Source of the DNA: Akkermansiaceae bacterium | GTDB lineage: Bacteria > Verrucomicrobiota > Verrucomicrobiia > Verrucomicrobiales > Akkermansiaceae | Direction: 5' to 3' | Assembly (NCBI GenBank): GCA_029866215.1 | Contig: JARWZU010000071.1 | Location: 1 to 64,000, forward strand | DNA length: 64,000 bases | In this document: piece by piece, positions 25,489 through 46,482 of the stretch | Numbering within the stretch: the first letter of the stretch is position 1 | Layout: every line of letters begins with the position of its first letter | Position numbers and translations under genes: made by a program | Notes under the pieces: model-generated | Databases searched by the model: none | What the model was told of the DNA's origin: nothing | Seen by the model: only the letters and a program-made list of their open reading frames with translations

Positions 25489-27294
25489 ATGACAAACGCA
25501 TTTCGTAATAAGAAAATCCTCACGGCTGCGGTTTCGCTCACCCTCTCGCTTCGCCGTTTTTCCAGCGCCCTGGCAATAGTCGCGCTGGCTTCTCCGGCGG
25601 CCAAGCTCATGGCGAAGAGCCATGACTGGTATGGAGTCTGGGCCCGGGGGGGCAACGCAGACACGAGCGCGTTCCCGTTCAAGGGCATTGAGTTCGATGG
25701 GAAGTGGGCTGAGATCGAGCCCAAGGAAGGGGTGTTTGATTGGAAGGAACTGGATGCCTCGCTCAGCAAGGCGGCGGATGAGGGGCTTCACGTTTTGCTC
25801 AGCGTGAACGTCGGTCCAGACAGCCCGAAGTGGCTGTATGAGAAAGGGATTCCCAAGGCAATGACCTCCGGTCACCGGCATGCAGGGCCCTATCCGTTTT
25901 ACCCCGATCCGCGGCATGTGGCATCCTATCACCGCCTGATCGAAGAGTTCGGCCGGCACGCCCGCAACCTTCCGCCGCGGCTGTTGGAGAGAATCGCCTA
26001 CGTGCAGGTCAAGACAGGAGCCACGGGTGATGAATCGCCCTACAAAGGAAACTTGCGGGACGCTCGATATGCGATCACCGACCCGCAATGGACCGAATTC
26101 CGACTCGCGGCGTTCCAAAAATACCATGTCGCTTTTCAACAGGGCCCGGGACCGGTCATCCCGCTGATGTTTGCCAGTGCCGCGGATCCGGAGAGATACC
26201 CGGAACTGCTGAAGTGGATCACTGCCAACGTCAAGGTGGCATGGGGGACCAAGATGAATGGCACTGGACAGGGCTATCAACTGAATGGTGAGACGTGGAG
26301 GACCCAGCCGGTTCTCCGCCACTCGGTCGATCCGGCACCTGGAGCTTTCGAGTTGTTTACCCGCTGCGAGATGGACCAGGGCTGGCAGGAGGGGATTTTC
26401 GCCCGCAACATCCACCAGGCATTCTACTGGACGAGCCTGTCGGCAGTCCATAGCGGCCTGTCGATGTGGAACATCACGCCCACGGCCATCAGGTGGCATC
26501 AGAAAACCGGCTACTGGGAGGATTTCAAGTTCTTCAACAAATACGCGGGCCAGACGCGGGCCGCCGAGGCGACGGGCGCTTTCTGCGCGCTGCGCGAAGG
26601 GCTGGACGCTGCCGATGCCAAGAAATTCCCCGAGTCCGTTTACGGCGAGGTTTCCGGTAAGGACGCCAAACGCTTGCTGGCCATTTGTGCTTCCCGCGCC
26701 GCTTATGGAGCGAAGATGGAGGACGTCGGTGGCGTGGACAAGGGCATGATGCACCAGCGCAGAAACCAAGAAGGGCTCAACGATGTGGGGTTCGAGGTGT
26801 TTCCAGGGAACTACGAGCGGTTCCTTCATCAGATCGATCCCGACAAGACCAGCGTTGGCTGGTGGCGTGTCGAGGGTGAGATCACGGCCAACAGCCCCGT
26901 CTATGGACGCTTCGCGCGGGGATTCGAGCACTCGTCCGGCAAGAACACGATGGGCTTCGCCCTGAAGGATTCGTTCTTCGGAAACAAGACCCTCAAGGGT
27001 GCCTATCCGGTCACCGTCCGGGTGGTTTACTTCGACAAAGGGAAAGGACAGTGGGCGCTGCATTACGATGCGGTCGGCGATCCTAACAAGAAGGCGGATA
27101 TTGTCACCAAGACCGACACCGGAAAATGGATGGAAAAGGTCTTCACTCTGAAGGATGCAAATTTCGGCAAGGCCGGATGGAGCGGATCAGACCTTTCCCT
27201 CGTCAATGTGGATGCCGAAGATGACATCTTCCACATGGTGGAAATCACCCGTCCATCCCCTGTCGAAGCCAAGAATCCGGCCGTTCAAAAGTAG
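25489..27294 (+). CDS. secreted TIM-barrel glycoside-hydrolase-like protein, paralog 1
   Basis: The ATG at 25489 gives 601 residues with an N-terminal export signal. The catalytic part resembles clan GH-A enzymes such as GH42: HDWYGVWARGG, IEFDGKWAEIEPKEGVFDW, and GATGDESPYKG with a candidate acid/base Glu near 181. FTRCEMDQGWQEG gives a candidate nucleophile Glu near 293. A conserved block, NDVGFEVFPGNYERFLHQID, precedes a C-terminal beta-sandwich with YFDKGKGQWALHYDA and DIFHMVEITR, probably a carbohydrate-binding domain. Three more members of the same family lie at 27.5, 38.3 and 41.6 kb, alternating with sulfatases. The family assignment is by eye and the substrate is unknown. Confidence 0.7.
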   Translation: MTNAFRNKKILTAAVSLTLSLRRFSSALAIVALASPAAKLMAKSHDWYGVWARGGNADTSAFPFKGIEFDGKWAEIEPKEGVFDWKELDASLSKAADEGLHVLLSVNVGPDSPKWLYEKGIPKAMTSGHRHAGPYPFYPDPRHVASYHRLIEEFGRHARNLPPRLLERIAYVQVKTGATGDESPYKGNLRDARYAITDPQWTEFRLAAFQKYHVAFQQGPGPVIPLMFASAADPERYPELLKWITANVKVAWGTKMNGTGQGYQLNGETWRTQPVLRHSVDPAPGAFELFTRCEMDQGWQEGIFARNIHQAFYWTSLSAVHSGLSMWNITPTAIRWHQKTGYWEDFKFFNKYAGQTRAAEATGAFCALREGLDAADAKKFPESVYGEVSGKDAKRLLAICASRAAYGAKMEDVGGVDKGMMHQRRNQEGLNDVGFEVFPGNYERFLHQIDPDKTSVGWWRVEGEITANSPVYGRFARGFEHSSGKNTMGFALKDSFFGNKTLKGAYPVTVRVVYFDKGKGQWALHYDAVGDPNKKADIVTKTDTGKWMEKVFTLKDANFGKAGWSGSDLSLVNVDAEDDIFHMVEITRPSPVEAKNPAVQK

Positions 27295-27476
27295 CCTATC
27301 CGCATGAACCACTCGCTTCGAAAGATCCAATTAACAAAACCAGCTCCCTGCGTTGACCGTGACCCGCCAGCGCTCATGCTCTTCGTAACCAAAACCCGAT
27401 TTCCCGGATTCCCGGCGGGTGGCCTTTCGATTTCCTAAGCTCAAGAAACCCACTAAACCCAATTCCAAGCATCACC

Positions 27477-30400
27477 ATGCCTTGCCACCAAGCAGCCGCC
27501 GGAGTCCCGCATAGCTTCTGCGGGTTATTCCGCCTGATCCTTGCCTCCGCAGCTCTCACCGGCGGCTCGATGCAGTCCCATGCGGATCTGGGACTACCCC
27601 GAGAAGCCTATGGAGTGTGGGACCGGGAAGGCGGGCATCCTGTCAGCCAATATCCCTATGCCCGGGGGCAGGAATATGCGGCGGAGTGGACGGCTATCAA
27701 TCCAGCCCGGAACACCTTTGACTGGGCAGCGCTGGATAGCCTGTTGCAGTTGGCCTACGATCAAAACCAGAGGTTTTTCGTCAAGATCCAGCCCGTCTCT
27801 GCGACGACCATGCCGCCTTGGATTTTCACCGCAGGCGTTCCGCAAATCATTTGCCCCACCTATACCTACGGGTACTATCTGGATCCTGAATTTAAGATCT
27901 ACTTTGAAGAAATGGTGCAGGCGCTTGCCAAACATCTGCGCGAGGACATTCCGGCTCATCTGGCGAATAACGTCTCTTTCGTTCGCGTGGATACCGGCAC
28001 CACGGGCGACGAAGAACCGTATGAAAACACGGACGTTAGCTTCGTTCCGGCACAGTATCAAATTAGCTCCGAGGAGTGGCGGAATTACAGGCTGTGGGCT
28101 TTCAATGTTTATGACCAGGCCTTTCAGCATGGCGCGGGATCTCAAATCCCGCTGCTCTTCCAGAATATCGAGGTGCCTGCCTATCAGATCGAGCAGAACT
28201 GGGTGATGGCCAATGTAACGTCCGGATTCGGGGCGAAATATGGCGGACAGGTTCGCGGGCACCATTTGTCGGATTCCAGAAACGTGCCGGACTCGTTCAA
28301 GGCCCTTTCCATGGATACACCCTTCAGGTTTTTCTCCGTTAACGAGATGGATCAGACTTGGGAAAAACCCTATTTCCAGCTCAATCTCAAATTGGGCATC
28401 TATTGGAGCGCGGTGGAACAACTCAACGCCGGTATGACGATATGGGATTGGAGCGGTTCGGTGATGGAGGGTGCGGCGGCCAATGACATTGTCTCGAGTG
28501 CCGAGTTTTTCAACACCTGGGCGGCGGAACTCGACCCGCCAACGGCCCGTGGCGGATTCTGCATCTTTCATGAAGGACTCGCTTCGGAAGATACAATTAA
28601 GTTCCCTAGCGCAATCTATGGATCGCCGGCAAACAAGACCAATACCGCCCGCTACACGGCGATCTGCGCGGCCTATGCCAGCCAGGGTGCCAAGATGGAC
28701 GACCTGAACGGGGCCACCTTGGGACAGGTGGCACAACGCAGGGTGCAGAATGGATTCAACGATTCCGGTTGGGGGATTTGGCCTGGGAACTATGAACGGT
28801 TTATCACTCAGCTGAACCCGGACTCCACCAGCAAGGGACTCTGGCGCGTCAACGGAACTTTGACGAGTAGCTCGCATCCGTATGACCGCTTCGCGCGTGG
28901 TTTCGACAGTGCCTCCGGCAGGAATACGATGGTTTTCGATATCAATGACAACCTGCTGCCTTCAGCGGGCCAGCGGGTGAGGATTTCCGTGGACTATCTG
29001 GACCGTGGCACCGGCCAGTTTGCCCTTAAATACGATGCTGCGGGGAATAACCAGAAGACTGCGGTTACGGTCGCTAAGACTAACACCAATACTTGGAAGA
29101 CAGCCTCGGCGATAGTCACGGACTGGGCCTTTAGGAACCAAGGGCCAAGCGGCTCCGACCTCACTCTCGTCAATCTGGATTCAGATGATGATATTTTTCA
29201 CAAGCTGGAAGTGACCAAGCTGGCCAATGTCCAAATCGGCACCGTCGGCTTAGGCACGGTGAGCGGTCGCACGGATGCCACGGCCTACTTGCCGGTCGTT
29301 GGTGACGACTTCGCCGAAAGCCAGCGCTTGGAATTGACGGTGACTCCTGCTTCGGGATGGAAATTCACCGGATGGAGCGGCGAGTTGACCGGGACCAGCG
29401 CCCGCCCGTTTCTTTTCCCAACCAAAGACTCGCGGGTCACGGCAACCTTTGCTCGGATTTCGGCCACCCCTCCGAGTAGCGTGCCTCTTTTCAGCACTGA
29501 TCCGATCGGCAAGACGGCTGCCCCGGTCAATGGGGTCTACTCGGGAACCCTATCGGGAAATGCCAGCGATCCGAACGGGCAACTGCTGACCTTCTCCAGG
29601 ATTTCCGGCCCCTCTTGGCTTAGCATCGCCGCCAACGGGACGCTCTCAGGAACACCGCAGCTCGCCGATCTGGGCCTCAATCGATGGACCGCGCAGGTCA
29701 GTAGCTCCGGCGGCACGGACACGGCGATTCTGCTGATCGAAGTCACCGCGCCTGGCCCTAATCCACCCTCGGGGCTGAGCTACTCCAGCCCTCCCGTTTA
29801 CACCAAGGGCACGGTGATCAACAATCTCTCCCCCTCCACCAGTGGCGGTGGCGTGGTGAGGTATACGGCTACGCCCAAATTACCAAGTGGCTTGAGGCTG
29901 AACAGCATCACTGGCCTTATCAGTGGCACACCTTTGGCACCAACACCGGCGACCGCCTACACCATCACGGCCACCAATCCTGACGGTTCGAGCACCACCT
30001 CACTCAACATCACGGTCATCGATATAGCCCCCTCCGCACTGACCTATTCCAGCAATCCCGCAACCTATCGAATAGAACAGGCGATCACTTTGAATGCTCC
30101 CACCAACAGTGGTGGAGCCGTGGTTTCTTACGCGATCTCGCCCGCCCTACCAGCCGGTCTGGCTTTGAACACCACCACCGGCATCATTAGCGGCACGCCG
30201 ACGGCACTTTCTACCAGCGCCAACTACACGATCACCGCCACCAACACGGGCGGCTCGACGACTGCCCAGCTGAACATTGCAGTCGAAGAAGGCGGCTACC
30301 GTAACTCCGCGGCGATCACGATCAATGACAATGCAGCGGCCTCGCCCTACCCATCCGCGATCGTCGTGCCAACAACCGCCGGAACAGTCACCAAGGTTAC

Positions 30401-31958
30401 GGTTACGATTTATGGCCTCACTCACGCACGGCAAAACGATCTGGACATTCTGCTTGTCGGGCCACTCGGGCAGAGGGTGTTGCTGATGTCGGATGTTGGT
30501 GCGGGTGTGTCTGTAGCAAATGTGAATCTGACGTTCGATGATGCAGCCGCAACTTCCCTAACGACCGATGCAGTTCCCATTACCACCGGAACCTACAAAC
30601 CCACTGATAGCGGGGGAAATCCCGATGCCTTCTCAGCGCCTGCTCCCGCTGCGCCGTATGACTTAACCTTGTCGGTTTTCAATGGAACGAATCCTGCGGG
30701 CACCTGGAGCCTCTATGTGGTGGATGACCGAGGAATCAACACCGGCAGCATCAGCGGAGGATGGAGACTGTCACTGCAGACCACCGCGCCGATCGCCGTT
30801 GCACCCTCGGCGCTTAGCTACTCCAGCAACCCCGCCACGTATACCAAAGACTCGGTGATCACTAACAACACGCCCACCAACAGCGGTGGGGCCGTGGTTT
30901 CCTACGCGGTCTCGCCCGCTCTGCCTGCGAGCCTCACGCTCAACACTTCCACCGGTGTCATCAGCGGCACGCCGACGGCCCTCACTGCCGCCGCCAACTA
31001 CACCATCACCGCCACCAACACCGGCGGTTCCACGCCCGCTTCCGTGAGCATCACGGTGAACGATGTCGCGCCTTCCTCTCTCAGTTACTCTAACAACCCG
31101 GCCACGTATACCAAGGACACGGCGATCACTAACAACACGCCCACCAACAGCGGTGGGGCCGTGGTTTCCTACGCGGTCTCGCCCTCACTGCCGACCGGCC
31201 TCGCACTAAACACTTCCACTGGTGTCATCAGCGGCACGCCGACAACCCTAATAGCCGCCGCCAACTACACCTTCACCGCCACCAACACCGGCGGTTCCAC
31301 GCCCGCTTCGGTGAGCATCGCGGTCAATGATGTTGCACCCTCGGCGCTGACTTACTCCAGCAACCCCGCCACGTATACCAAAGACTCGGTGATCACTAAC
31401 AACACGCCCACCAGCAGCGGTGGAGCTGTTGTTTCCTACGCGGTCTCGCCCGCTCTGCCTGCGGGCCTCACGCTGAACACTTCCACCGGTGTCATCAGCG
31501 GCACGCCGACAACCCTAACAGCCACCGCCAACTACACCGTCACCGCCACCAACACCGGCGGCTCGACGGACGCAGCCTTGAACCTAGCAGTGGTCTCAGC
31601 CTATTCCGCGTGGTCCACCCAGTATCAACTCACCCAGGGCCCCGAAGGGGATGATGATGGGGATGGAAACTCGAACTATTTCGAATTCGTCGCCGGCCTG
31701 ATCCCTAACAACTCCGCTTCTGTCTTCAAGACCACGGCGGCCCCCGTCCCCGGACAAGTGAACCAAATAACCATCGTCTTCAGTCCGATCATCAGCGGCC
31801 GCACCTACAAGATCAAAAGCAGCGATTCTCTAGCCCCTGGAACCTGGACCGAACTCGTCAATCCCATCGTGAGTGATGCATCCGATGTGCGCACCGCCAT
31901 CGATTCCTCCGCTACCGGCGACAGGAGATTCTACGTGATCGAGATCACCGCCCCCTGA
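27477..31958 (+). CDS. large secreted glycoside-hydrolase-like protein with Ig-like repeats, paralog 2
   Basis: The 1493-residue protein has a signal peptide, a barrel like paralog 1 (AYGVWDREGG, GTTGDEEPYENTD with Glu near 180, FFSVNEMDQTWEKP with Glu near 290), the shared beta-sandwich (FALKYDAAGN, DDIFHKLEVTK), and an InlB-like beta-repeat (GWKFTGWSGELTG near 625). After these come several cadherin/He_PIG Ig-like repeats around a proprotein-convertase P-like domain (ITINDNAAASPYPSAI near 950). The last domain, AYSAWSTQYQLTQGPEGDD on, resembles the C-terminus of the 9.1 kb protein. Three late Ig repeats are nearly identical. The architecture suggests a cell-surface-anchored, long-reach polysaccharide enzyme. 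Confidence 0.75.
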   Translation: MPCHQAAAGVPHSFCGLFRLILASAALTGGSMQSHADLGLPREAYGVWDREGGHPVSQYPYARGQEYAAEWTAINPARNTFDWAALDSLLQLAYDQNQRFFVKIQPVSATTMPPWIFTAGVPQIICPTYTYGYYLDPEFKIYFEEMVQALAKHLREDIPAHLANNVSFVRVDTGTTGDEEPYENTDVSFVPAQYQISSEEWRNYRLWAFNVYDQAFQHGAGSQIPLLFQNIEVPAYQIEQNWVMANVTSGFGAKYGGQVRGHHLSDSRNVPDSFKALSMDTPFRFFSVNEMDQTWEKPYFQLNLKLGIYWSAVEQLNAGMTIWDWSGSVMEGAAANDIVSSAEFFNTWAAELDPPTARGGFCIFHEGLASEDTIKFPSAIYGSPANKTNTARYTAICAAYASQGAKMDDLNGATLGQVAQRRVQNGFNDSGWGIWPGNYERFITQLNPDSTSKGLWRVNGTLTSSSHPYDRFARGFDSASGRNTMVFDINDNLLPSAGQRVRISVDYLDRGTGQFALKYDAAGNNQKTAVTVAKTNTNTWKTASAIVTDWAFRNQGPSGSDLTLVNLDSDDDIFHKLEVTKLANVQIGTVGLGTVSGRTDATAYLPVVGDDFAESQRLELTVTPASGWKFTGWSGELTGTSARPFLFPTKDSRVTATFARISATPPSSVPLFSTDPIGKTAAPVNGVYSGTLSGNASDPNGQLLTFSRISGPSWLSIAANGTLSGTPQLADLGLNRWTAQVSSSGGTDTAILLIEVTAPGPNPPSGLSYSSPPVYTKGTVINNLSPSTSGGGVVRYTATPKLPSGLRLNSITGLISGTPLAPTPATAYTITATNPDGSSTTSLNITVIDIAPSALTYSSNPATYRIEQAITLNAPTNSGGAVVSYAISPALPAGLALNTTTGIISGTPTALSTSANYTITATNTGGSTTAQLNIAVEEGGYRNSAAITINDNAAASPYPSAIVVPTTAGTVTKVTVTIYGLTHARQNDLDILLVGPLGQRVLLMSDVGAGVSVANVNLTFDDAAATSLTTDAVPITTGTYKPTDSGGNPDAFSAPAPAAPYDLTLSVFNGTNPAGTWSLYVVDDRGINTGSISGGWRLSLQTTAPIAVAPSALSYSSNPATYTKDSVITNNTPTNSGGAVVSYAVSPALPASLTLNTSTGVISGTPTALTAAANYTITATNTGGSTPASVSITVNDVAPSSLSYSNNPATYTKDTAITNNTPTNSGGAVVSYAVSPSLPTGLALNTSTGVISGTPTTLIAAANYTFTATNTGGSTPASVSIAVNDVAPSALTYSSNPATYTKDSVITNNTPTSSGGAVVSYAVSPALPAGLTLNTSTGVISGTPTTLTATANYTVTATNTGGSTDAALNLAVVSAYSAWSTQYQLTQGPEGDDDGDGNSNYFEFVAGLIPNNSASVFKTTAAPVPGQVNQITIVFSPIISGRTYKIKSSDSLAPGTWTELVNPIVSDASDVRTAIDSSATGDRRFYVIEITAP
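30798..31600 (+). repeat. three tandem 267-bp repeats inside the coding sequence
   Basis: The marker GCCACGTATACCA recurs at 30834, 31101 and 31368, exactly 267 bases (89 codons) apart. Each unit encodes one Ig-like module with TNNTPTNSGGAVVSYAVSP or close to it, and LNTSTGVISGTPT. Long identical runs between units suggest recent duplication or gene conversion. Older diverged copies are upstream, from about 29760 and 30020. Confidence 0.9.
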
Positions 31959-32303
31959 TTTTTCGATATGGGACACCATCTCCGGACACGCCATGGCGCT
32001 GGGTTCGCCCCCGCATTTTCTGGACCGATTCCCGTTCGGAAAATGGTGTTGAAAATACCGTTTTAGGTGTCCCCTTTCGGTGATTTTCGCGGTGTATCTT
32101 TATATGAAAATTCGAACGCGCGGCAAATGCCCACGTCACCTCGAACCAGCCCATGATCGAATTCACATCAGCCGGAATTCAAGAATCCTCCAAACAATTC
32201 TCCCATAAAAACTACCGACCCAGACCTCGGGGCTTACGCAAAACGACAATCAGTCACGTGCCAGGCTCGGCAGCCCGGCTTTGCCCTGATCGTCACGCTC
32301 TCA

Positions 32304-35300
32304 TTGATGATCCTACTGACTGTGATCGCAGTCGGATTACTGAGTCTCAGCGCTGTATCACTGCGTTCTTCTGGCCAGAGTTCCGCCCAGCAGCAAGCCC
32401 GGGCCAATGCTCGCCTCGCCCTCATGCTCGCCATTGGCGAGTTACAGATTCAGATGGGTCCGGACCAGCGGATTTCGGCCAATGCTGCCATCCTCGATAC
32501 ATCTCCAGTGAGCCATACTCACTGGATGGGTTCATGGAACTCATGGCATGCCGACAGTAGCGACGGGGTGGATTCAGCGAGCCAACACCGCACCATCACG
32601 GGTGGAGGCTCCGGGCTCGCACCCACCTACGACACCAAGCGCGAGGATCATTTCCGCTCATGGCTGGTCTCACTCCCACCGAGTGATGCCGGGAAACTCT
32701 CCTCCGCCCGCAATCTGACCCTCGATGGCAAGATTTCACCCGCCAAGGCAGACACCGCCGTGCGTTTGGTCGGTGCCGGCTCGTTGGGAACGACCGGCGC
32801 CGCAAGTGACTTTGTCAACGCCCAGCTCATCCCGCTGCGCGGCAAGTCAAGCGGCTCATCCCCCTCGGGCCGGTTCGGCTGGTGGGTGGGCGATGAGAGC
32901 CAGAAAGCCCGCATCGTGGGCGACTCCTACGCCCTCAGCGACAAACTCACCCTTGCTGACAGGATTTTCCGCCATCAAGCACCGGGCTCAACGGGCACCA
33001 CCAGTGTCGAAGGCTTGGAGAACTTGAGCAATGAGGACAACGTGGATGGAAGTGACAACACCGATCAACGGCAACTCACCAAAGTGCCCTCGCTTACAAG
33101 CCTTGCCTTTTTGACTAATGGTGGTGGGAAATCCACTCCTACCAAAAACTTCCATACCATCACGCCCTACTCCTATCAGGTACTCTCAGACGTCAGGGAA
33201 GGCGGCCTCAAGCGCGACTTGAGCACGCTACTCGAGCGCCCCATCTCCACGGGCGAAACCAGTGATGACTCGATGCTTTACCGCTTCGGTCAGGAATCTG
33301 TGCCCATCCAGGATCTTGCGGCATACTACCAACTCTACCGGAACAAAGGCACCCTCTATGCCTCGAATGTCCTCGAAAAAGGCATCCAGACCACCGCTCC
33401 GGATTTCAAGTCCAGCGCCGCCTTCCGCGAGGAATATAGCAACCTCTACCGGATGCCCGTGCCGATCCGGCTTCAGTTCGAGTTGAGTCTGATCGCCAAA
33501 CCGCGCCCGGTGACCGTGCCGCCTACCACGCTGAATACCGACACCCACCTGTTGCATGTCGGGATCACTCCCTCGGTGACACTCTGGAATCCCTACAATA
33601 TTCCTCTCATCATGAACTACAGCAGCAACCCGGAGCAGTCTGCCAGTCTGTTGCGCCTGTTCAACCTTCCGCTTTCCTTGCAATGGAGGAAGAACGGCAC
33701 GATCCTCCCCGGAGACGGAGTTTCTCTCGGAGACATCGTGGGAAATGCCAGTAGCGCATTCACGCTTTTCTTCTCGGGGAAGCGCTCGATCGCATTTCAA
33801 CCCGGTGAAGTCCGCGTGTTCTCGCTCTCACCCAATGCCAGCATCGTCAACTTGAAGGATCCCGACAAATTCGATCCAAACCTGGAGGTCATTGCCGACT
33901 ATGACCCGAATCAATTCCTCAAGATGCCGCGCTCCGCGACTAGGGAGCAGTTTAAGCTGGATATGCCGGCCGATTCGAAGGAATCCAAGAACTACCATAA
34001 GGAAGGAAGTGACTACGCCCTCACTTTCAAGGACGGAGACAAGATTTCAGTCTCGGTCACTGCCGCCAACAGCAGCTCCCAGCTCAGCCAAGGCAACAAT
34101 GCCTTTGAGTTTTTCATGCGCCAATCCGTGATGAGCAAGACGAACGAGGAATCGATGTGTCGCCAGTATCATCTCAGCAGCCGCATGGATACCGCCCCCG
34201 CGAGAGCGCAGGATTTCAACAACAAATTGATGGCCAAGGGATTTCCGAAGGGGAAAGACATCAACTTTGGCTCTGACATCCGGGGAACGACCTTGATCAA
34301 AAATAGCACGAAGATTCCAGAGCGCGGATATGCCTTCCTCCAATTCACCCTCGCGGCCGGTGGCGAAACAAAAACTGGTGGGCGTCAGTTTGTAAGCCGG
34401 CCATTCCTCCACTCCTCAGCCATCACCGGCGGCTCATTCATCGACAGTTTCGAGCCTGATTCGCTCTATCAGAATGGCTGGAACTGGTCGGTGGCGGAGG
34501 CTCGTGGTAGCTTCTCAACGCTCTCCGAAACGGGTAGAGATGGGAAAGGCTTCTATGGCGGCGGCTACACCTCGGCGACGGGTTACACCAACGTGGTTCA
34601 GCAGGAGGTTCCCATCGTCCCGCCCATCTCGATCGCCGCTCTCAGCCATGCTCAGCTCGGCGGTTTCAGCATCGCCAGAGCGGCGCTCGGAAGCAAACCG
34701 GCCGATTTCGCCAATAACTATCAAAAGACCACTGCCAGCGGTAACGGCGGACTCTTTCCCCGCACGCTGCAGGCGATCGGAAACTCCTACGCCCATCCGT
34801 ATTTAAGGCCGGATGAAGCCCATGGCACATGGACCCGGGAGATTCTCGCTGGAGCTGGTACGAAGGTGACCTTCGCAGACCATTCTTATCTCGCGAACAA
34901 GGCATTGTGGGACGACTATTTCTTCTCGTCCATCACACCAGCCAACACCCGGATCTTCGAGGGCACTTCCAGTGCCTCGCAAGTCGCTGAAGGATTCTTT
35001 TTCAATCAGAAGCCTCTGCCCAACCGCCGCATGACACCCTACCTCAAGGACTTCGACAAGGCCATGCTCAATCAACTGGTCACCACTGCCGACAAGGCGA
35101 CCGACGGCTTTGCCGATCAGATCGCATCCCGTCTGATGGTTCAAGGTGCCTTCAACGTCAACTCCACTTCGGTGGCGGCTTGGAAGATCTTCTTTTCGAG
35201 CCTCAAGGACAAGAAAATCGCCTACCTCGGCATGAGCCGGTCCCTAACCGATAACGAGGTGAAGCTCTACACCTATCCCGACCCAGCCGCATCTAACGAA

Positions 35301-38281: not shown

Positions 38282-39847
38282 ATGAGCCGTATTGTTCTAA
38301 CAATCGCCGCCCTGCTGCTCATGCCGCTGGAGGCACTGCCAGCCACGGACGAGATTGCCACCGCCTCGGTGCTGCCTCCAACTCACCGTGGGCTGTATGC
38401 AATTTGGTATGAGCGCATGCCGGAGGTCATGGAATTGCCATACATCAACGGCGGCCAAGTCGTTGCGCAGTGGGGCGATCTGGAAACTGCGGAAGGTCAG
38501 TATGACTTCAGTCAACTTTCGGCAAAGATGAAACAGCTGCATGACCAGAACAAGCCGTTCTCAGTGCAGGTCAACGGCAACATCAAGCCGGCATGGCTGT
38601 TCGACCGCGTGCCCTTTCTACCAGAGCCTTTGGGCGTGCAGGTGCGCGACACACGGGGGACGCTGATGTATTGGCATCCGGTGTACGAGCGGGCGTATCT
38701 CAATTTCCTGCGGGCTTACGCTGCGTTTCTGAAACAATCCCCCTACCGCGCATCGTTGCTCGGGGTGCGGCAAAACTTTAACGCCCTTGGCACGGAGCAT
38801 TGGCAAGTGCCCATCGACAAGATTTCCCTGTCGCAATGGCGCGTGCCTTCGGGAGCGAATGCCGGAGAACCGTTCACGCCGGCACTGGGCCGCGCCTATC
38901 AAACCCGCGTGTTAGAGACGTTCGTCAGGGAGTTTACGCCGGAGACGCGCGTGTTTGTCCGCAACAACATTGCGGCGGAGCTGCGCCAGTCATTTGCACA
39001 GGATTTCACGGCCGGGCGACTGTGCTGGTTTCACACCAGCAGCGAAGTGGAACCGCGCAAGGGCGTCAGCGGACAATACCAACAGTTTCTCGATGATTGT
39101 CGCACCGGCAAAACGCTCGCTTATGCCGAGCCGTGGGCCAGCGCTTGGGGCCACCACGGCGGCAAGACCGATCCGCGTTGGTGCAGCCCACCGCAATGGA
39201 ACTACTGGCGCTTACTCTGCGACCTCCATTGCGGCGTTTCCTTCATCGCGTGTTACGCCAGCGATCTCGAGGTGGCCCACAGCGGACGTTACCGGGTTGG
39301 CAACCTTTCTGCCGCTGAAAGCAAAAATGCCACGACGTTCAAAGACGAGTTCGATGCAGCATTTCAGTTCGCCGCCAAATATGCCGGCTATCACGCCAGT
39401 CCACAGGCAGCGCCCGGAGCCTGGATTGCTTTTCGCGAGGGCGACACCCTTAAGGGCGACTACACGTTCTTCATGAAACGCGAAACCGATCAGACGCGCG
39501 AGATAAAGAACGCTGGCCCGGGTGACCAACGGTTCGGGGCTTGGGCACGGCTGTTGCCGCGCGACCAGACGATGCAACTGGTCCTGAACGAAGCCTTCGC
39601 CACAAGCCTTGCGACGCAAGCCGCCGTGCTCCGCGTCACCTACCTCGACCACGGTCACGGTTCGTTCGACATCCAGGCTGCCGGCCAGACTTTTCAAGGC
39701 CAATGCAGCAATTCCGGTCGCTGGAATACCATGACCTGGGAAATGTCCCGCCCGGATTTCGGAAAAGCCGACTCCGGAGTGCACCTATGCCTCCGCGCTC
39801 TCGGAGGTGATCTAACTGTTCACATGGTGGAAGTCGCCCGCCTATAA
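38282..39847 (+). CDS. secreted glycoside-hydrolase-like protein, paralog 3
   Basis: The ATG at 38282 gives 521 residues with a signal peptide; the frame is open upstream inside the sulfatase gene, but that is overlap. The most divergent of the four paralogs, it keeps the outline: LYAIWYERMPE, VVAQWGDLETAEGQYDFSQL, NALGTEHWQV with a candidate acid/base Glu, and LAYAEPWASAWG with a candidate nucleophile near 282. The C-terminal beta-sandwich ends LTVHMVEVARL. It sits between two sulfatase genes in the same direction with gaps of 35 and 41 bases. It probably acts on the desulfated product of its neighbours; substrate unknown. Confidence 0.65.
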   Translation: MSRIVLTIAALLLMPLEALPATDEIATASVLPPTHRGLYAIWYERMPEVMELPYINGGQVVAQWGDLETAEGQYDFSQLSAKMKQLHDQNKPFSVQVNGNIKPAWLFDRVPFLPEPLGVQVRDTRGTLMYWHPVYERAYLNFLRAYAAFLKQSPYRASLLGVRQNFNALGTEHWQVPIDKISLSQWRVPSGANAGEPFTPALGRAYQTRVLETFVREFTPETRVFVRNNIAAELRQSFAQDFTAGRLCWFHTSSEVEPRKGVSGQYQQFLDDCRTGKTLAYAEPWASAWGHHGGKTDPRWCSPPQWNYWRLLCDLHCGVSFIACYASDLEVAHSGRYRVGNLSAAESKNATTFKDEFDAAFQFAAKYAGYHASPQAAPGAWIAFREGDTLKGDYTFFMKRETDQTREIKNAGPGDQRFGAWARLLPRDQTMQLVLNEAFATSLATQAAVLRVTYLDHGHGSFDIQAAGQTFQGQCSNSGRWNTMTWEMSRPDFGKADSGVHLCLRALGGDLTVHMVEVARL

Positions 39848-39888
39848 TATTTACCCATGCCAAGACCTGATAACATGCTAACTAACTT

Positions 39889-41505
39889 ATGAAATACAAC
39901 ACACCCATACTCACTTCCCTCGTGAAAACGCTCAGACCACTCGGCCTCAGTACCCTGTCGTCCATCCGCGCCGCCCTGCTGCTGACACCATTGTTCGCAA
40001 TCGGCGCTGCCGCTGAGACTACCCAGCCTGTCCAACAACCGAAACTCAACGTCCCGGCCAAGGCAGACCTGCCGGACGCCGCGCAATATCAAAGCAAGGG
40101 CTTCAATGTCTTGTTTATCGCTGTTGACGACTTGAACGATTGGGTCGGTTGCTTCGGCGGCAACCCGCAGGCGATCACCCCCAACATGGACCGGCTGGCC
40201 AAGCAGCAGGCGATGGTGATGAACAAGGCCTACGCACCCTCCACGGTTTGCTGTCCCTCCCGCTCGGCTCTGCTAACCGGCATGCGGACCGCTTCGATCG
40301 GGGTCTATGGAAACCGTCAGAATATCAAGTCCGCGCCTAAAGCGAAGGATGTCGTCACCCTGCCGCAATACTTCAGCCAGCACGGCTATCACACTCTCTC
40401 CACAGGGAAGATTTTTCATAAACACCCGGCGGCGGACGGCATGGATGAAGGCCAGTGGGCGTTCAACGAATACGCCACACCCCCTGGGGGCGGAAACGGC
40501 GGTATGCTTTGGGAGAAAAGTCCCTCGACAAGCGGCGTCAGTGAAAAAGGCGAGGAGTTCCGGTGGGGAGCCGTCAAGGCCCCGGTTCAAAAGACCAAGG
40601 ATTACATCAGCTGCAAATGGGCGGCCGACCAGCTCCAGCGCGATTTTGGCGGCAAGCCGTTTTTCCTCGCCCTTGGCCTCTCCAAACCGCATTTGCCATG
40701 GGAGGTTCCGCAGGAGTTCTTCGATCTGTATCCGCTTGATAAACTGAAACCGGTCGAGATCGTGCGCGACGACCTCGATGATATCGTCGGCAAGAATGGC
40801 AAGCAGCTTTTTCGTCCGGATCCCCGTTTTCTAGCCGCGGATAGCACCAACCTGCATCTTGAGGCGCAGCGTGCCTATCTGGCCAATATCAGCTATGTGG
40901 ATCACTGCCTCGGCGTGCTGTTTGATGCGCTGGCTAAGAGCAAGTATGCCGAAAACACCATCATCATGCTCTGGGGCGACCACGGCTGGCACCTCAGTGA
41001 AAAGATGAAGTACGGCAAGACCGATCTATGGGAAGAAACGTGCCGCGTGCCACTGATCGTCCGCGTGCCCGGCGTGACGAAATCCGACTTCAAGTGCGAA
41101 GGCGTGGTCAACCTGCTCGACATGTATCCCACGCTGGTGGAGCTGTGCGGGCTGCCGGCCAATGCGGAAAACGAAGGGCGCAGCTTTGCCCCTCTGCTAA
41201 AGAATCCGTCGATGGAGTGGAACGTCCCGACCCTGACCACCTATCAATACAAGAACCACTCCTTCACCGATGGTCGTTATCGCTACACCTACTATGGCGG
41301 GAAGGCCGGCGGTGCCGAGGAGCTCTACGACCATTCCGTGGATCCGCTCGAGCATAAAAACCTGGCGGCGAATCCCGAATCTCAAGAGATCATCGCCCGC
41401 TTCAAAAAGTATCTGCCCACCCACGATGAACCGGACGCTCCCAGCAACAAACTTTCCGGAGCCGACAAAAGGAAAATGAGAAAAGGGCAAGCGAAAGAAA
41501 GATGA
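39889..41505 (+). CDS. secreted sulfatase, iduronate-2-sulfatase-like
   Basis: The 538-residue protein has an N-terminal export signal, FNVLFIAVDDLNDWVGCFGG with metal ligands Asp80-Asp81, and the formylglycine site CCPSR at 121-125. STGKIFHKHP, LSKPHLPWEVPQEFFDLYPL, WGDHGWHLSEKMKYGKTDLW and LVELCGLPA are typical of the iduronate-2-sulfatase branch. It would remove sulfate, perhaps from a 2-position of a uronic or hexose residue; this is a family inference. The C-terminus is very basic (KRKMRKGQAKER). It lies 41 bases after paralog 3 and 62 before paralog 4. Confidence 0.93.
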   Translation: MKYNTPILTSLVKTLRPLGLSTLSSIRAALLLTPLFAIGAAAETTQPVQQPKLNVPAKADLPDAAQYQSKGFNVLFIAVDDLNDWVGCFGGNPQAITPNMDRLAKQQAMVMNKAYAPSTVCCPSRSALLTGMRTASIGVYGNRQNIKSAPKAKDVVTLPQYFSQHGYHTLSTGKIFHKHPAADGMDEGQWAFNEYATPPGGGNGGMLWEKSPSTSGVSEKGEEFRWGAVKAPVQKTKDYISCKWAADQLQRDFGGKPFFLALGLSKPHLPWEVPQEFFDLYPLDKLKPVEIVRDDLDDIVGKNGKQLFRPDPRFLAADSTNLHLEAQRAYLANISYVDHCLGVLFDALAKSKYAENTIIMLWGDHGWHLSEKMKYGKTDLWEETCRVPLIVRVPGVTKSDFKCEGVVNLLDMYPTLVELCGLPANAENEGRSFAPLLKNPSMEWNVPTLTTYQYKNHSFTDGRYRYTYYGGKAGGAEELYDHSVDPLEHKNLAANPESQEIIARFKKYLPTHDEPDAPSNKLSGADKRKMRKGQAKER

Positions 41506-41567: not shown

Positions 41568-43211
41568 ATGAAAAACAGAGTATTAACCTATATGGGTTTG
41601 CTGGTCGCCTCGATGGCCGGAGTGGCGGCGCAGTCGAAGCCGGGCTACGGAATATCCAGCTGGGCGGGATGGAAGCCGGGTGACATATCGCGCGCCGAAT
41701 GCCCGGAGCTGTGCAGCGTGCCACTCATCCTGAAGTGGGATGACCTTGAACCGGTGCAGGGAGAATACGCGTTCCAGCTACAGATCGGCAAGCCACTCGA
41801 GGCCGCGCATGCGGATGACCTGTCTGTAACGCTGATGATCTGGGTAGGACCGGATGCACCTGAATGGATCTACACCAAAGGCGTTCCGGTAGTCACCACC
41901 GACAGGACGCATAATGCCCTGGGCCAGAAGACGGATAAACAGAGCAAGTATCCCTACTATCTCCACCCAGAATACAAGAAGGCATTTCACGGGCTGATCG
42001 ACGCTTTCGGCAGTTATATCAAGACGCTGTCGCCGACCCTGCGTGAACGTATTGTGCTGGTCCAGTGTGCCGAAGGGTCCACCGGTGATGGACAGCCTTA
42101 CAAGGGGAACCCGATCGATAAAAAGCAGGATATATCAGAGGAAGTTTGGAACGAATTCCGGCTTGAGGCTTGGGACCGCTACCGAAAGGCGATGCCCGGC
42201 ATGCCCATCCTTGTGAACTCTGACGCCAATGGCGGCATGGAATCCCAGTGGCTTCTCGATAACATGGAGGTGATCACCTTGAAAGAGGGCATGTTCAGTC
42301 ATGGCTACATCGTCAGTGATAATGACAAACGTCTGGCAAAGCACGCCGCCATCGAAGCAGAAGCCAACAAACGCGGCAAAATGGTGCTCATGCGTGGTGA
42401 GATGGACGGCGAGTTGTTTGAAATGGGCTGGTCGGAGCGCAACATTCCGCAAGCCCTCTACTGGTCGGGTATCTTTGCTGCGCATTGTCGGTTGGACATC
42501 TGGAATGTTCCCACCAAGGCGTTGAAGGACAAAGCCAATCGGCCCGCCTGCGCGTTCTTTAACAAATATGCCGGCCACAGGAACGCCTCGACTGCACCAG
42601 CGGCCTTCTGTGCGCTGCGCGACGGGCTCGAAGCCTCCGACTTTGACCGATTTCCCGCCGCGAAATTCGGCGGTAAGCCAGAGAACAAAAGGGATGCGGA
42701 GCGATACATCAAGATTGCCAAAGCCTTTTCCGCCTATGGCGCACGCATGGAAGATCCACGAAAGGCGACCGGCGGCGGCATGATCAACCGCAAGGCCACA
42801 GGCCCCAACGATGTAGGCTGGGGCACCTTGCCAGGAAACTATTCCCGATTCCTGACGCAAATCGACCCGGGCTCCGGCGATGTCGGACGGTGGAACATCG
42901 ACGAGACCATCCATGGCCGTTTCGGTCGCTCCTTTGAGCATCAGTCAGGCAAGAAGCAAATGCGCTTCCAACTCGATGCGGGCTTTAATGCCAAGAAGGT
43001 GAAGGTGACTGTCACCTACCTCGACAAGGGAACGGGAACCTGGACAATCGGACTCCCGGGAAACGATGGCACAAAAATCTTCCAAAACGAGAACAGTGGC
43101 CGGTGGAAGACCCAGACTGTTACATCCTCCGGAATTTCTGACATCGTCCTGAAATATGAATCGGGAGACGACACCATCTTCCACCTCATCGAGGTCGATC
43201 GGATAGACTAA
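41568..43211 (+). CDS. secreted glycoside-hydrolase-like protein, paralog 4
   Basis: The ATG at 41568 gives 547 residues with a signal peptide; the upstream ATG at 41502 overlaps the sulfatase end and adds a poor leader. It aligns by eye with paralog 1 along its length: ISSWAGWKPGD, LILKWDDLEPVQGEYAFQ, GSTGDGQPYKGNPID, LMRGEMDGELFEMGWSE, NDVGWGTLPGNYSRFLTQID and the end DTIFHLIEVDRID. The candidate acid/base Glu of paralogs 1 and 2 (GDE) is Gly here (GDG); a Glu six residues earlier (CAEGS) might replace it. The candidate nucleophile (GEMDG, near 278) is kept. It may have altered activity or act mainly as a binding protein. Confidence 0.68.
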   Translation: MKNRVLTYMGLLVASMAGVAAQSKPGYGISSWAGWKPGDISRAECPELCSVPLILKWDDLEPVQGEYAFQLQIGKPLEAAHADDLSVTLMIWVGPDAPEWIYTKGVPVVTTDRTHNALGQKTDKQSKYPYYLHPEYKKAFHGLIDAFGSYIKTLSPTLRERIVLVQCAEGSTGDGQPYKGNPIDKKQDISEEVWNEFRLEAWDRYRKAMPGMPILVNSDANGGMESQWLLDNMEVITLKEGMFSHGYIVSDNDKRLAKHAAIEAEANKRGKMVLMRGEMDGELFEMGWSERNIPQALYWSGIFAAHCRLDIWNVPTKALKDKANRPACAFFNKYAGHRNASTAPAAFCALRDGLEASDFDRFPAAKFGGKPENKRDAERYIKIAKAFSAYGARMEDPRKATGGGMINRKATGPNDVGWGTLPGNYSRFLTQIDPGSGDVGRWNIDETIHGRFGRSFEHQSGKKQMRFQLDAGFNAKKVKVTVTYLDKGTGTWTIGLPGNDGTKIFQNENSGRWKTQTVTSSGISDIVLKYESGDDTIFHLIEVDRID

Positions 43212-43287: not shown

Positions 43288-44724
43288 ATGAAACTCATCT
43301 CAACAACCGCCTTTATCTCCAGCTTGATCTTCAGCGTATCAGCATTGCCTTCCCTAGCCGCTGATGTCCCCGCCAAGAAACCTAACATTATTTTCATCCT
43401 CGTCGATGACGCGGGCATTGGCGATTTCTCTGCCTATGGCTGCAAGTATGGTGTCACGCCCAACATTGATCGCCTGGCGGCGGAGGGTATGAAGTTTACC
43501 CGCGCCTACAGCGGTAGTGCTGTCTGCGCGCCATCGCGCTGCGTGCTGATGACCGGCCAGCATCCGGGGCACATGTTGCGCCGTGCGAACCAAAGCAAGC
43601 ACGGCCTGCTCGCCCTCCCCGACGGCCAGTCGACTTCCGCCCGCGTGTTGCAAGACGCCGGTTACGCGACTGGTGGTTTCGGTAAATGGGGGCTTGGCAA
43701 TCCCGGCACGACTGGAGCGGCGGAGAAGCAGGGCTTTGATGTGTTCTTCGGCTACTACGACCAGAAACACGCGCACGACTTTTACACCGACTATCTCGTC
43801 CGCAACGGCGTGGATCTACCCTTCCCACAATCGGGCCGGAAGACGTGGGAGGACTATTCCCATACCCGCATCGCCGATGAGACGCTGAAGTTCATCGAGC
43901 AGAACAAGGACCGCCCGTTTTTCTGCTACGCCGCATGGACGCCGCCGCACGGCGACTATGTCATCCCGGACAATGCCCCGTATTCCCAGAAGCCATGGTC
44001 GGAGGAGGTCCAAAATTACGCCGCGATGGTCGGGTTGATCGACAAAGATGTCGGACGCGTCCTACAGAAGCTGAAAGACCTCGGTCTCGATGACAACACG
44101 CTGGTGATTTTCACTTCCGACAACGGGGCGAATGAAGAATTCGTCAAGCCGCTCGGCAGCACCGGTGGGCTACGGGGTTCCAAGCGGATGCTCTACGAAG
44201 GCGGCATTCGCGCGCCGTTCATCGCTCGTTGGCCGGGACGGATCCAGCCAAACACGACCAGCGACTTGCTGACCACATTCGTGGACTTTCTGCCGACGGC
44301 GGCAGACCTGGCCGGGGTTCCTATACCGCCCGCGACGGATGGCATCTCCATGGTGCCAACCTTGCTGGGCAAGAAACAGGCTGCGCGGCACGAGTCGCTA
44401 TACTTTGAGATCTACGAACCCTATTTTCAACAATCGGTTCGCCTGGGTAACTGGAAAGGTTACCGGTTGGGGACAAAAGCGCCGCTCGAACTCTACGACC
44501 TCAAGACCGATCCGGCCGAGCAGCACAACCTGGCCGCAACTCACCCGGAAATCGTTCGTAAGATCGAAGGCATCATGGCTGCGGAGCACACGCCTTCTCC
44601 ACACTACGACGCGCCAGAGCAACCCGGGAAGGTAACCAAAGCCAAGGAAAAGACCCCGAAGGCCAAACCCCTCGCTGAGTTATTGAACGAGGAGAACGCG
44701 AATCCCACACCCAATGAAAAATAA
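43288..44724 (+). CDS. secreted arylsulfatase-type sulfatase
   Basis: The 478-residue protein has a signal peptide (cleavage near PSLAADVPA), NIIFILVDDAGIGDFSAYG with Asp40-Asp41, and the formylglycine site CAPSR at 80-84 followed by CVLMTGQHPG. GGFGKWGLGNPG, YAAWTPPHGDYV and FTSDNGANEEFVKPLGSTGG follow, a standard arylsulfatase-A-like layout. It would hydrolyse sulfate esters extracellularly. Its last 11 bases overlap the next sulfatase gene, so the two are translationally coupled. The C-terminal tail is Lys/Pro/Glu rich. Substrate unknown. Confidence 0.93.
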   Translation: MKLISTTAFISSLIFSVSALPSLAADVPAKKPNIIFILVDDAGIGDFSAYGCKYGVTPNIDRLAAEGMKFTRAYSGSAVCAPSRCVLMTGQHPGHMLRRANQSKHGLLALPDGQSTSARVLQDAGYATGGFGKWGLGNPGTTGAAEKQGFDVFFGYYDQKHAHDFYTDYLVRNGVDLPFPQSGRKTWEDYSHTRIADETLKFIEQNKDRPFFCYAAWTPPHGDYVIPDNAPYSQKPWSEEVQNYAAMVGLIDKDVGRVLQKLKDLGLDDNTLVIFTSDNGANEEFVKPLGSTGGLRGSKRMLYEGGIRAPFIARWPGRIQPNTTSDLLTTFVDFLPTAADLAGVPIPPATDGISMVPTLLGKKQAARHESLYFEIYEPYFQQSVRLGNWKGYRLGTKAPLELYDLKTDPAEQHNLAATHPEIVRKIEGIMAAEHTPSPHYDAPEQPGKVTKAKEKTPKAKPLAELLNEENANPTPNEK

Positions 44725-46294
44725 GCAAATGATGCTGAATCCATCGAAGTCCTGCCTTGCCGTGCTGCTGATGATGCCGTTGACGGTCGTCCATGCCGCC
44801 GACGTGGCATCGTCCGCCAAGCCTAACATCATTGTCATCATAACCGACGACCTCGGGGTCGGCGATCTCAGCCATGCCGGCGCGACCGGAATCAAGACGC
44901 CAAACCTCGACCGCATGACGGCCGAAGGAGTGCGCTTCACCCAGGGCTACGCGCCCTCCGCGACCTGCACGCCGTCGCGCTACTCGCTTCTAACCGGTGA
45001 ATACGCGTGGCGGCAGAAGGCGAAGACCAACAGCATCCTGGATGGCGACGCGCCGCTCTGCATCGAGCCGGGCCGCTACACCCTGCCGGAAATGCTGCGC
45101 AAGGCGGGCTATCAGACCGGCATCGTCGGGAAGTGGCACCTAGGTCTCGGCGACGGCAAGAACAAGGTGGACTTCAACGGTGAGGTCAAACCCGGCCCGC
45201 TTGAAATCGGCTTCGACTATTCTCACATCATCCCCGCCACCGTCGACCGTGTGCCGAGCGTGTGGGTCGAGAACCACAAGGTCGTAGGACTGGACCCCGC
45301 CGATCCCATCGAGGTGAGCTATCTGAAAAACATCAGCGACGAGCCGACCGGTCTGGAGCGCCCCGACCTGCTCACCCACTATGGCGCGGACAAACAGCAC
45401 TCCAACACCATCATCAACGGCATCAGCCGCATCGGCTTCATGAAAGGCGGCAAGTCTGCCCGCTTCAAGGACGAGGAACTCGCCAGCACGGTCGTCGCCA
45501 AGTCGGTCGAGTTCATCGAGAAGCGGAAGGACAAGCCGTTCTTCCTGAATGTCGGCATGTTCGAGCCGCACGTTCCACGCGTCGCCGAGCCACCGTTTGC
45601 GGGTAAGAGCGGCACCGGCGTGCGCGGCGATGTCATCGTCCAGATCGACTGGCAGGTCGGAGAAATCATGAAGACGCTCGATCGCCTCGGCATCGCTAAA
45701 AACACCATCGTCATCTTCTCGAGCGACAACGGGCCGATCCTCTTCGACGGCTATCACGACCGCTCGGTCGAGGATCTCAAGGGCCACAACCCCACAGGCG
45801 GACTTCGCGGGTGGAAGTATCTCACGTTTGAAGGCGCCTGCCGCGTGCCTTTCATCGTCAACTGGCCGGGCACGATCAAGCCGCGCGTCAGCGACCAGTT
45901 GATCAGCCTGGTCGATTGCTTCTCCACCTTTGCGAAAATCGCCGGTGGCAATGTCCCGGCGAAGGCCGCCCCGGACAGTCTGGACCTGTCCGAAGTGCTA
46001 TTAGGCAAAACGACCGAAAACCTCCGCGACCACACCATCCTCCACGGCATCGGCGGTCTTGCCCTCCGTCAGGGCGACTGGAAATACATCCCCGCCACCG
46101 AGGTCTCAGGTGGCATGGGCAGCGGCGCGAACGCAGCCGATCCGCGCTTCGCAGCTGCTAACATTCCCGAGCCACTGCTTTTCGATCTCGCCACCGACCC
46201 GAACGAAAAGACCAACATCATCGCCAAGCATCCGGAGAAGGCTGCGGAGCTTGCTGCACGCTTGCAAAGCATCGTCGCCAACCCCTCCCGATGA
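44714..46294 (+). CDS. secreted arylsulfatase-type sulfatase
   Basis: The 526-residue protein has a signal peptide, NIIVIITDDLGVGDLSHAGA with Asp45-Asp46, and the formylglycine site CTPSR at 85-89. IVGKWHLGLGDGKN, GMFEPHVPRVAEPPFAGKSG and SSDNGPILFDGYHDRSVEDL complete the core. The start overlaps the previous sulfatase gene by 11 bases; internal Met codons at 44729 and 44732 are possible alternative starts. The stop overlaps the ATG of a broken DUF1080-like gene (ATGA), so that gene was once part of the same operon. It would act on sulfated sugar outside the cytoplasm; substrate unknown. Confidence 0.92.
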   Translation: MKNKQMMLNPSKSCLAVLLMMPLTVVHAADVASSAKPNIIVIITDDLGVGDLSHAGATGIKTPNLDRMTAEGVRFTQGYAPSATCTPSRYSLLTGEYAWRQKAKTNSILDGDAPLCIEPGRYTLPEMLRKAGYQTGIVGKWHLGLGDGKNKVDFNGEVKPGPLEIGFDYSHIIPATVDRVPSVWVENHKVVGLDPADPIEVSYLKNISDEPTGLERPDLLTHYGADKQHSNTIINGISRIGFMKGGKSARFKDEELASTVVAKSVEFIEKRKDKPFFLNVGMFEPHVPRVAEPPFAGKSGTGVRGDVIVQIDWQVGEIMKTLDRLGIAKNTIVIFSSDNGPILFDGYHDRSVEDLKGHNPTGGLRGWKYLTFEGACRVPFIVNWPGTIKPRVSDQLISLVDCFSTFAKIAGGNVPAKAAPDSLDLSEVLLGKTTENLRDHTILHGIGGLALRQGDWKYIPATEVSGGMGSGANAADPRFAAANIPEPLLFDLATDPNEKTNIIAKHPEKAAELAARLQSIVANPSR

Positions 46295-46482
46295 AACCAT
46301 TTCTCATTTTTATAGTCACGATCAGCAGCCTGATCCTCCACGCGCGAGCTGATGATCGGCCTCCAAGTGACGTGGCCAGCGCCCCCACGAAGAAGATGAA
46401 TCTGTTGGACGGAGAGGGCTTTTGAAGGTGGACCTTTGTTTCGACTAACACCCATGCACTGACTGCGCCACTTGGTCCGTAG
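46291..46482 (+). pseudogene. truncated DUF1080 (3-keto-disaccharide hydrolase-like) gene
   Basis: The gene overlaps the sulfatase stop by ATGA and begins with a signal peptide (MKPFLIFIVTISSLILHARA), then KKMNLLDGEGF. A TGA at 46423-46425 interrupts it. In the same frame the reading continues RWTFVSTNTHALTAPLGP to a TAG at 46480. The pair LLDGEGF and WTFVS resembles the opening of secreted DUF1080 proteins. Everything after about 60 codons is gone, and an IS630-type remnant follows. It was probably the last enzyme of this operon and was lost by transposon-associated deletion. Confidence 0.65.

Follow-up and report, generated by a model that had tools for sequence, protein, structure and literature searches.

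The question raised by a stretch of Akkermansiaceae DNA was whether its four sulfatase genes and the four hydrolase-like genes among which they lie work together on one sulfated glycan. The stretch, called the window here, comprises 64,000 nucleotides (assembly GCA_029866215.1, contig JARWZU010000071.1, positions 1–64,000). A preliminary description had recognized between 25489 and 46482 four related TIM-barrel proteins, termed H1 to H4 in this report, and four sulfatases, termed S1 to S4 (gene names, to be kept apart from the sulfatase family S1 and its subfamilies such as S1_15), and had proposed a sulfated-polysaccharide locus. This proposal was supported by the co-conservation of the sulfatases with H genes in other genomes, and we consider it likely that positions 21321–46294 form a linked module for a sulfated glycan in which the H proteins serve as glycosidases. 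All eight genes were present on the plus strand with the starts previously given, and the enzyme set, including two further genes (GHa and GHb), is as follows.

21321–22724, plus strand: GHa, exported, weakly similar to six-hairpin glycosidases (GH78 type); the unit starts with this enzyme
22765–24639, plus strand: GHb, a GH36-like, alpha-galactosidase-type enzyme
25489–27294, plus strand: H1, 601 amino acids, TIM-barrel glycosidase-like with a C-terminal beta-sandwich; candidate catalytic residues D181, E182, and E294
27477–31958, plus strand: H2, 1493 amino acids, an H-family domain with InlB-repeat, He_PIG, and P-domain-like modules C-terminal to it
36702–38246, plus strand: S1, 514 amino acids, GTG start; family S1 sulfatase, putatively of S1_8 or S1_11 type
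38282–39847, plus strand: H3, 521 amino acids; divergent H-family member
39889–41505, plus strand: S2, 538 amino acids; family S1 sulfatase, apparently closest to S1_7
41568–43211, plus strand: H4, 547 amino acids; H-family member of the E176/G182 type
43288–44724, plus strand: S3, 478 amino acids; family S1 sulfatase, apparently closest to S1_20 (3-sulfo-Gal/GalNAc)
44714–46294, plus strand: S4, 526 amino acids; putative S1_15 sulfatase (6-sulfo-Gal/GalNAc type)

When genome contigs were scanned with H1 as a single sequence, no match was obtained; a scan with an alignment of H proteins gave 30 loci with H genes, in 20 of which a sulfatase lay at most 2.5 kb from an H gene. Usable genome-wide counts existed for 13 of the 30 loci, from 11 genomes (genome G436 was retained, with 67 of 72 candidates scored), and here 25 sulfatases were found against 1.2 expected from genome density, with none in three of the 13 (L015, L017, and L024). 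Of the other 17 loci, ten lay in genomes whose scored candidates reached a ceiling of about 67, and seven were outside the count. Locus L033 held four of the eight sulfatases of its genome (G430), and L036 held five of the 13 of Flavobacterium luteum.

Orthologs of the window's own sulfatases (tblastn, at least 60% identity; 66–94% observed) were found among the 30 loci four times for S1, nine times for S2, eight times for S3 (three partial), and six times for S4, and they adjoined H genes in Verrucomicrobiota, in Kiritimatiellota, and in one Acidobacteria bin. The order S2-H4-S3-S4 of the window recurred in L038 at 89–94% identity; L033 showed S1-H3-S4-S2-H4-S3, L035 showed GHb-H2-S1-S2-H4-S3, L041 held GHa-GHb-H2, and the Acidobacteria bin (L014), for which misbinning is possible, carried GHb-H-S1-S4. 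GHa accompanied H genes in five loci and GHb (at least 40% identity) in six. S2 regularly accompanied H4: it was present in nine of the ten loci with an H4 ortholog and adjoined H4 in eight of these nine, and in the tenth locus the contig ends 121 bases past H4. Among 387 genomes of the phylum, S2 (E ≤ 1e-140) occurred in at least four, all of them among the at least seven with a full-length H gene; both counts are lower bounds, with three candidates scored per genome. After the window's genome was left out, all three S2 genomes still fell within the six of 386 that had H, for which the chance probability, uncorrected for kinship, was 2e-6. A single-contig genome, G177, contained within 44 kb relatives of S1 (68%), S2 (74%), S3 (69%), S4 (61%), and GHb (61%) together with three H genes (50, 39, and 40%), and 13 sulfatase-like frames were counted in the 60 kb examined. 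Genes of DUF4874/DUF4832, GH114, and GH123 type were also seen inside this related sulfatase/H locus (L091:1360-8369).

Some features of these data weigh against the linkage. In ten of the 30 loci, several of which are short contigs, the 2.5 kb around the H genes contained no sulfatase. The expected counts ignore the general clustering of sulfatases, and no other glycoside hydrolase (GH) family served as a control. The co-occurrence of S2 with H takes no account of kinship, and two of the genomes share one genus.

The four H proteins had been described as members of one family, and this held, by blastp for H1, H2, and H4 and by profile comparison for H3. Judged from their sequences, H1, H2, and H4 are clear paralogs, with identities of about 36% (H1–H2), 33% (H1–H4), and 29% (H2–H4) over 488–578 aligned columns, and H3 is a remote one, which blastp aligned with the others in pieces only (E 1e-7 to 2e-3). 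A profile of H3 and five relatives matched the profile of the other H types at 99.8% in hhalign (E 2.4e-30, 443 columns). Searches of Pfam, NCBIfam, and PDB gave no full-length family match for H1 to H4, only a weak N-terminal similarity of GH42/GH35 type. The GH42 model PF02449 scored 28.7 bits on H1 but covered only model positions 34–79 of 376, and it stayed below its cut-off of 21 in H2 (15.3), H3 (18.2), and H4 (12.2); E ≤ 0.01 was reached in 21 of 51 H members, as a short N-terminal match. The curated score of the GH35 model NF051902 was not reached (H1, 16.5 bits versus 500), and the PDB sequence search returned the same N-terminal stretch only. The H family is therefore unnamed in Pfam, NCBIfam, and PDB. 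No earlier description was found in open-licence PMC papers, a search that cannot prove that none exists, and CAZy may already contain the family.

If H already had a name in CAZy, as GH167 or as another family without a Pfam or NCBIfam model, only the species and the arrangement would be new. Public genomes such as that of Pontiella sulfatireligans do carry H genes, and passages of PMC6923384 present GH167 as a GH42-like family of clan GH-A that acts after sulfatases. The lack of a full-length match argues against this explanation, as do the dimensions given for GH167 in the same passages, about 775–808 residues with a helical domain at the N-terminus and a domain B of GH42 type, versus an H core of about 560 residues; we regard it as unlikely. 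GH167 was not among the matches listed in the fold and PDB sequence comparisons, an absence to which we give no weight.

The history of the family was examined in a maximum-likelihood tree of 55 H domains, in which 41 of 52 inner branches were well supported. (The conservation table drew on 55 of the 63 clustered open reading frames; three were too short and five fell short of E 1e-20.) H1 to H4 of the window fell into four separate supported clades, each with its nearest relatives in other organisms: H1 grouped with a Sumerlaeota bin and H3 with Verrucomicrobiota bins, and the clades of H2 and H4 spanned Verrucomicrobiota to Pontiella (Kiritimatiellota). This placement argues against a recent tandem amplification, and the tree indicates that H1 to H4 are old, separately inherited paralogs. 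Two named isolates carry H genes, Flavobacterium luteum (L036) and the marine Pontiella sulfatireligans (L032), and bin names suggest that most H-locus bins came from lakes and reservoirs. A full-length H gene was absent from all 24 same-genus relatives and from three more, and was present in 7 of 199 genomes of the genus of F. luteum and in 4 of 29 of the family of Pontiella; in 79 of the 86 matching phylum genomes the matches were short, N- or C-terminal ones that were not counted as members. H is thus a patchy, specialized trait. Its absence from same-genus genomes raises the possibility of lateral transfer, but the GC content of the window is even (0.55–0.60), so patchy loss is equally possible. 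Among plasmids the single match was a weak, C-terminal one from Pseudanabaena (24.8%, covering 19% of the query), and searches of phages and PHROGs gave none, and hence there was no sign of a mobile carrier.

All four sulfatases matched PF00884, a family of alkaline-phosphatase-type fold, end to end above the cut-off, with the cysteine motifs CSPSR, CCPSR, CAPSR, and CTPSR, which have the C-x-P-x-R form for formylglycine, and mutual identities of 22–33% over the longest pairwise pieces. The preliminary description had assigned them to different branches of family S1, and the comparison with solved structures bore this out; subfamily labels were taken from passages of PMC10154620, PMC10154612, PMC9096561, and PMC12549532. 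S4 fits an S1_15 sulfatase, with similarity to characterized members over its full length: it matched 6s20 at E 4.7e-150 (residues 32–520), S1_15 structures scored 503.8–422.8 bits (6s20 503.8, 7oze 486.6, S1_15A 474.2, and S1_15B 465.7), and the next non-S1_15 entries scored about 176 bits. In an alignment of S4 with three structures, an Asp-Arg pair (DRVP) and the His before a SRIG-like stretch lined up; these are candidates for the His and Asp/Arg of the S1_15 recognition triad. A second S4-like sulfatase (63%) was seen elsewhere in the genome (G000:C47:3060-4559). By sequence similarity, S3 appears nearest to S1_20 (BT1622/BT1636; 7ana, E 9.2e-88; 7an1, E 4.6e-83), with the S1_16 structure 9fo1 at E 2.9e-70, and S2 nearest to the S1_7 structure 6hhm (P18_S1_7, E 4.9e-56). 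S1 was about equally distant from a GlcNAc-6-sulfatase (5g2v, E 2.9e-29) and from an S1_8A enzyme (9bb9, E 6.4e-29), and may be of S1_8 or S1_11 type.

GHb scored 29.1 bits with PF02065 (cut-off 27), covering 130 residues, and matched the alpha-galactosidase 1zy9 at E 4.7e-20. K-V-D366 (K-x-D) and D438 (in R-T-G-G-D) were invariant in eight aligned rows, and these two Asp residues are candidates for the GH36 catalytic pair. For GHa the score with PF17389 was 19.5 bits, under the cut-off of 24.5.

That the glycan is galacto-configured, either a galactan or a galactosamine-containing polymer, is the simplest reading and seems to us a nearly balanced possibility, based on the S1_15 type of S4, the S1_20-like S3, the GH36-like GHb, the resemblance of H to beta-galactosidases, and an aldose 1-epimerase nearby. 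According to passages of PMC10154612 and PMC12549532, characterized S1_15 enzymes take the 6-sulfate off galactose or GalNAc, and the S1_20 enzymes BT1622/BT1636 are described in part of PMC10154620 as acting on 3-sulfo-Gal/GalNAc. A point against a galactan is that the closest solved relative of S2, P18_S1_7, serves in ulvan degradation as a xylose-2-sulfatase and, taken alone, does not suit such a polymer; the passages of PMC9096561 that describe it also place a galactose-4-sulfatase in S1_7. Freshwater sulfated heterogalactans are known from work on water hyacinth, cited by PMC5615132. Among the proteins scanned by Pfam there were no GH168/GH107 fucanases or GH16/GH82/GH150 carrageenases, although no dedicated search for them was made.

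A galactosamine-containing glycan of chondroitin- or mucin-like type, rather than a plain sulfated galactan, would also fit gut-bacterial S1_15 and S1_20 enzymes, which act on both Gal and GalNAc in the passages of PMC10154612 and PMC10154620, and the GH123- and GH114-type genes of the G177 region are a hint in the same direction. However, no GH123, GH88, GH29, or lyase was recognized among the window proteins scanned, and part of PMC12549532 gives galactose as the substrate of the two S1_15 enzymes in the lambda-carrageenan pathway. We consider this substrate rather improbable.

Since the preliminary description had called the H proteins GH-A-like, we examined their fold. An AlphaFold model of H1, built with 51 family members, had a predicted local distance difference test score (pLDDT) of 92.2 and showed a TIM barrel with eight strands in order, followed by a beta-sandwich; H1 was thus predicted inside a glycoside-hydrolase-type fold. 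In a Foldseek search the best 50 entries were all called beta-galactosidase (E down to 2.5e-11). VIA Z scores of the best 50 matches ran from 15.3 down to 13.3, with a GH5-type cellulase at 14.8 and GH42 at 14.5, in alignments of about 8–13% identity. The model makes H1 a clear member of the TIM-barrel hydrolase fold class, without a close solved structure among the searched entries. The barrel is supported for H2 and H4 by homology and for H3 solely by profile similarity.

In the barrel, E294 of H1 (E253 of the model) stood at the end of strand 7 (248–253) and was Glu in all 51 non-H3 rows, and D181, in the strand-4 loop, was Asp in all 51. After strand 4 the sequence was T-G-x-T-G-D-E in 31 of 51 rows, E-G-x-T-G-D-G in 14, and different in six, so that a Glu stood at position 182 in 31 rows, at position 176 in 14, and at both in none; H1 and H2 are of the Glu182 kind and H4 of the Glu176 kind. 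In the H3 type, E154 and E265 (mature numbering, alignment A4) were invariant in six of six relatives, and E265 closes the strand predicted at 261–265 in a weak model. The clean exchange of the two Glu positions looks like selection for a carboxylate, and we infer that the shifting strand-4 glutamate may be a relocated acid/base.

Clan GH-A enzymes have their nucleophile Glu at the end of strand 7 and are marked by an Asn-Glu, with the Glu as acid/base, at the end of strand 4. Several observations count against placing H there or against its catalytic role. The Asn-Glu is not present after strand 4 in the H family, so that of the GH-A-like label the barrel and the strand-7 Glu stood and the clan motif did not. 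The top VIA match (15.3) was a beta-amylase, within 1 of the GH5-type and GH42 entries, Foldseek TM-scores of H1 were about 0.4 over the whole model, and the H3 model, from six sequences, was poor (pLDDT 55). Neither Glu pattern occurred in six of the 51 rows (F..DR in two; F..DV, F..DK, T..DG, and Y..DY in one each), and some of these members may be inactive or use D181. The missing Asn-Glu, these six rows, and the many Ig-like modules of H2 would also suit inactive barrels, whether all H proteins or the subtypes with neither Glu, whose role would be to bind the glycan without cleaving it; the invariance of E294 and D181 and the exchange of Glu between two positions make this quite improbable.

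A chance neighbourhood of common sulfatases and unrelated genes is very improbable: the window's genome is rich in sulfatases (39 PF00884 matches in 3.03 Mb, clustered elsewhere too, such as five in 8 kb of contig C69), which makes clustering alone weak evidence, but the linkage goes beyond chance because orthologs of this particular set are kept as neighbours elsewhere too, sulfatase-poor genomes included.

With the H proteins taken as glycosidases of a linked module, the exported enzyme set would dismantle one sulfated glycan stepwise. The family S1 sulfatases would strip sulfates from terminal sugars, presumably in exo fashion, and each desulfation would free a bond for one H enzyme, a TIM-barrel glycosidase with a probable retaining mechanism and beta specificity, or for GHb, whose part would be to cleave off alpha-linked galactose. 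Each H type may serve another beta linkage or sulfation state, with H4 working with S2. The order of desulfation before cutting is proposed by analogy with the lambda-carrageenan cascade (passages of PMC12549532) and with GH167 (passages of PMC6923384); the hydrolase activity, beta specificity, and exo action of this scheme are likewise inferred. In its fullest form, which we advance tentatively, the proposal is that H is a family of glycosidases which CAZy does not yet list and whose acid/base Glu moved between paralogs (182 versus 176), that its four types each have their own sulfatase (most plainly S2 with H4), and that together they form a line, common to several phyla, in which a sulfated galactan or galactosaminan is first desulfated and then cut.

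The borders of the unit differ from those first drawn. The alternation of H genes and sulfatases holds from 36702 onward, with gaps of 35–76 bases and one 11-base overlap, and not upstream, where H1 and H2 are 182 bases apart and H2 and S1 are parted by 4.7 kb holding two other genes. No gene stops at 46482, the end initially proposed; S4 stops at 46294. The unit is also wider, in that GHa and GHb (21321–24639) belong to it. The N-termini of the enzymes resemble signal peptides when judged by eye, in agreement with the export signals claimed. The two intervening genes are the following.

32217–35975, plus strand: Verru_Chthon_A-like/pseudopilin-like protein, start codon uncertain
36009–36689, plus strand: small exported-looking protein, no family match

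The first matched TIGR02600 (20.6 bits) and T2SS_GspK (24.8 bits) at its N-terminus only. Five other contigs of the genome carry additional copies, and one of these relatives has sulfatases a few kb away (C4:249694-253065). Pfam, NCBIfam, and PHROGs searches with the second gave no match. Since no relative of either was found in the fetched H loci and the first is multi-copy, they probably do not belong with the enzymes.

Upstream of the locus lie autotransporter-repeat (PATR/autotrns_rpt) surface proteins at 9087–12491 and 18751–21144, relatives of which precede GHa/GHb at a short distance in L017 and in L041, and the aldose 1-epimerase at 12532–13785. L019 also has an epimerase of this kind, from the same sequence cluster, and another lies in the G177 region (L090). 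A fifth sulfatase, with a C-S-P-T-R motif recognized by eye, is encoded on the minus strand at 16531–17952, outside the range originally noted. Two large exported-looking minus-strand proteins, both with the string GGHCGRADDYHYHIAP, flank the locus at 13965–16256 and 47218–51165. The genome has nine FGE-type matches, a broad family, which would make sulfatase maturation possible. Sodium:solute symporters were present in the loci of some relatives.

If the proposal is right, a widely shared family of enzymes that has no name and acts on a sulfated glycan can be tested in two named isolates, and one more GH family would be added together with four sulfatases with defined partners. It would reveal on which sulfated polymer these bacteria feed, a question still open for non-marine habitats, and the H paralogs, with their swapped strand-4 glutamate, would illustrate how a catalytic residue can migrate.

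Compared with known systems, the locus differs from a polysaccharide utilization locus (PUL) of Bacteroidota type, which has a SusC/SusD pair. The absence of such a pair, reported in the preliminary description, was confirmed: no SusD was found anywhere in the genome, and the three TonB-receptor matches lie on contigs C1, C8, and C10, with none on the window's contig (C67). The GH42/GH35 beta-galactosidases of clan GH-A share with H the TIM barrel and a weak N-terminal sequence match, but this match ends within the first third of the barrel, identity in structural alignments is 11–12%, H has no Asn-Glu after strand 4, and the accessory domains are different. In freshwater Verrucomicrobia, sulfatase genes adjoin GH genes as they do here, although the passages of PMC5615132 that describe these neighbourhoods name no such family or conserved module. 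The GH167 exo-beta-carrabiosidases of the kappa/iota-carrageenan PUL are GH42-like, cut only after the S1_19/S1_7/S1_NC sulfatases, and have genes grouped with those sulfatases, as is proposed for H; compared by description only, from passages of PMC6923384, that system has one GH167 gene per locus versus up to four H types here, and a different domain make-up. In content, the locus resembles the lambda-carrageenan cascade of Pseudoalteromonas distincta U2A, in which S1_15 and S1_8-type sulfatases alternate with alpha- and beta-galactosidases. According to passages of PMC12549532, that cascade is started by a GH150 enzyme, of which no like gene was recognized here in Pfam scans (no dedicated search was made), and cuts with GH110 and GH2 enzymes, where the present locus has the GH36-like GHb and the H proteins.

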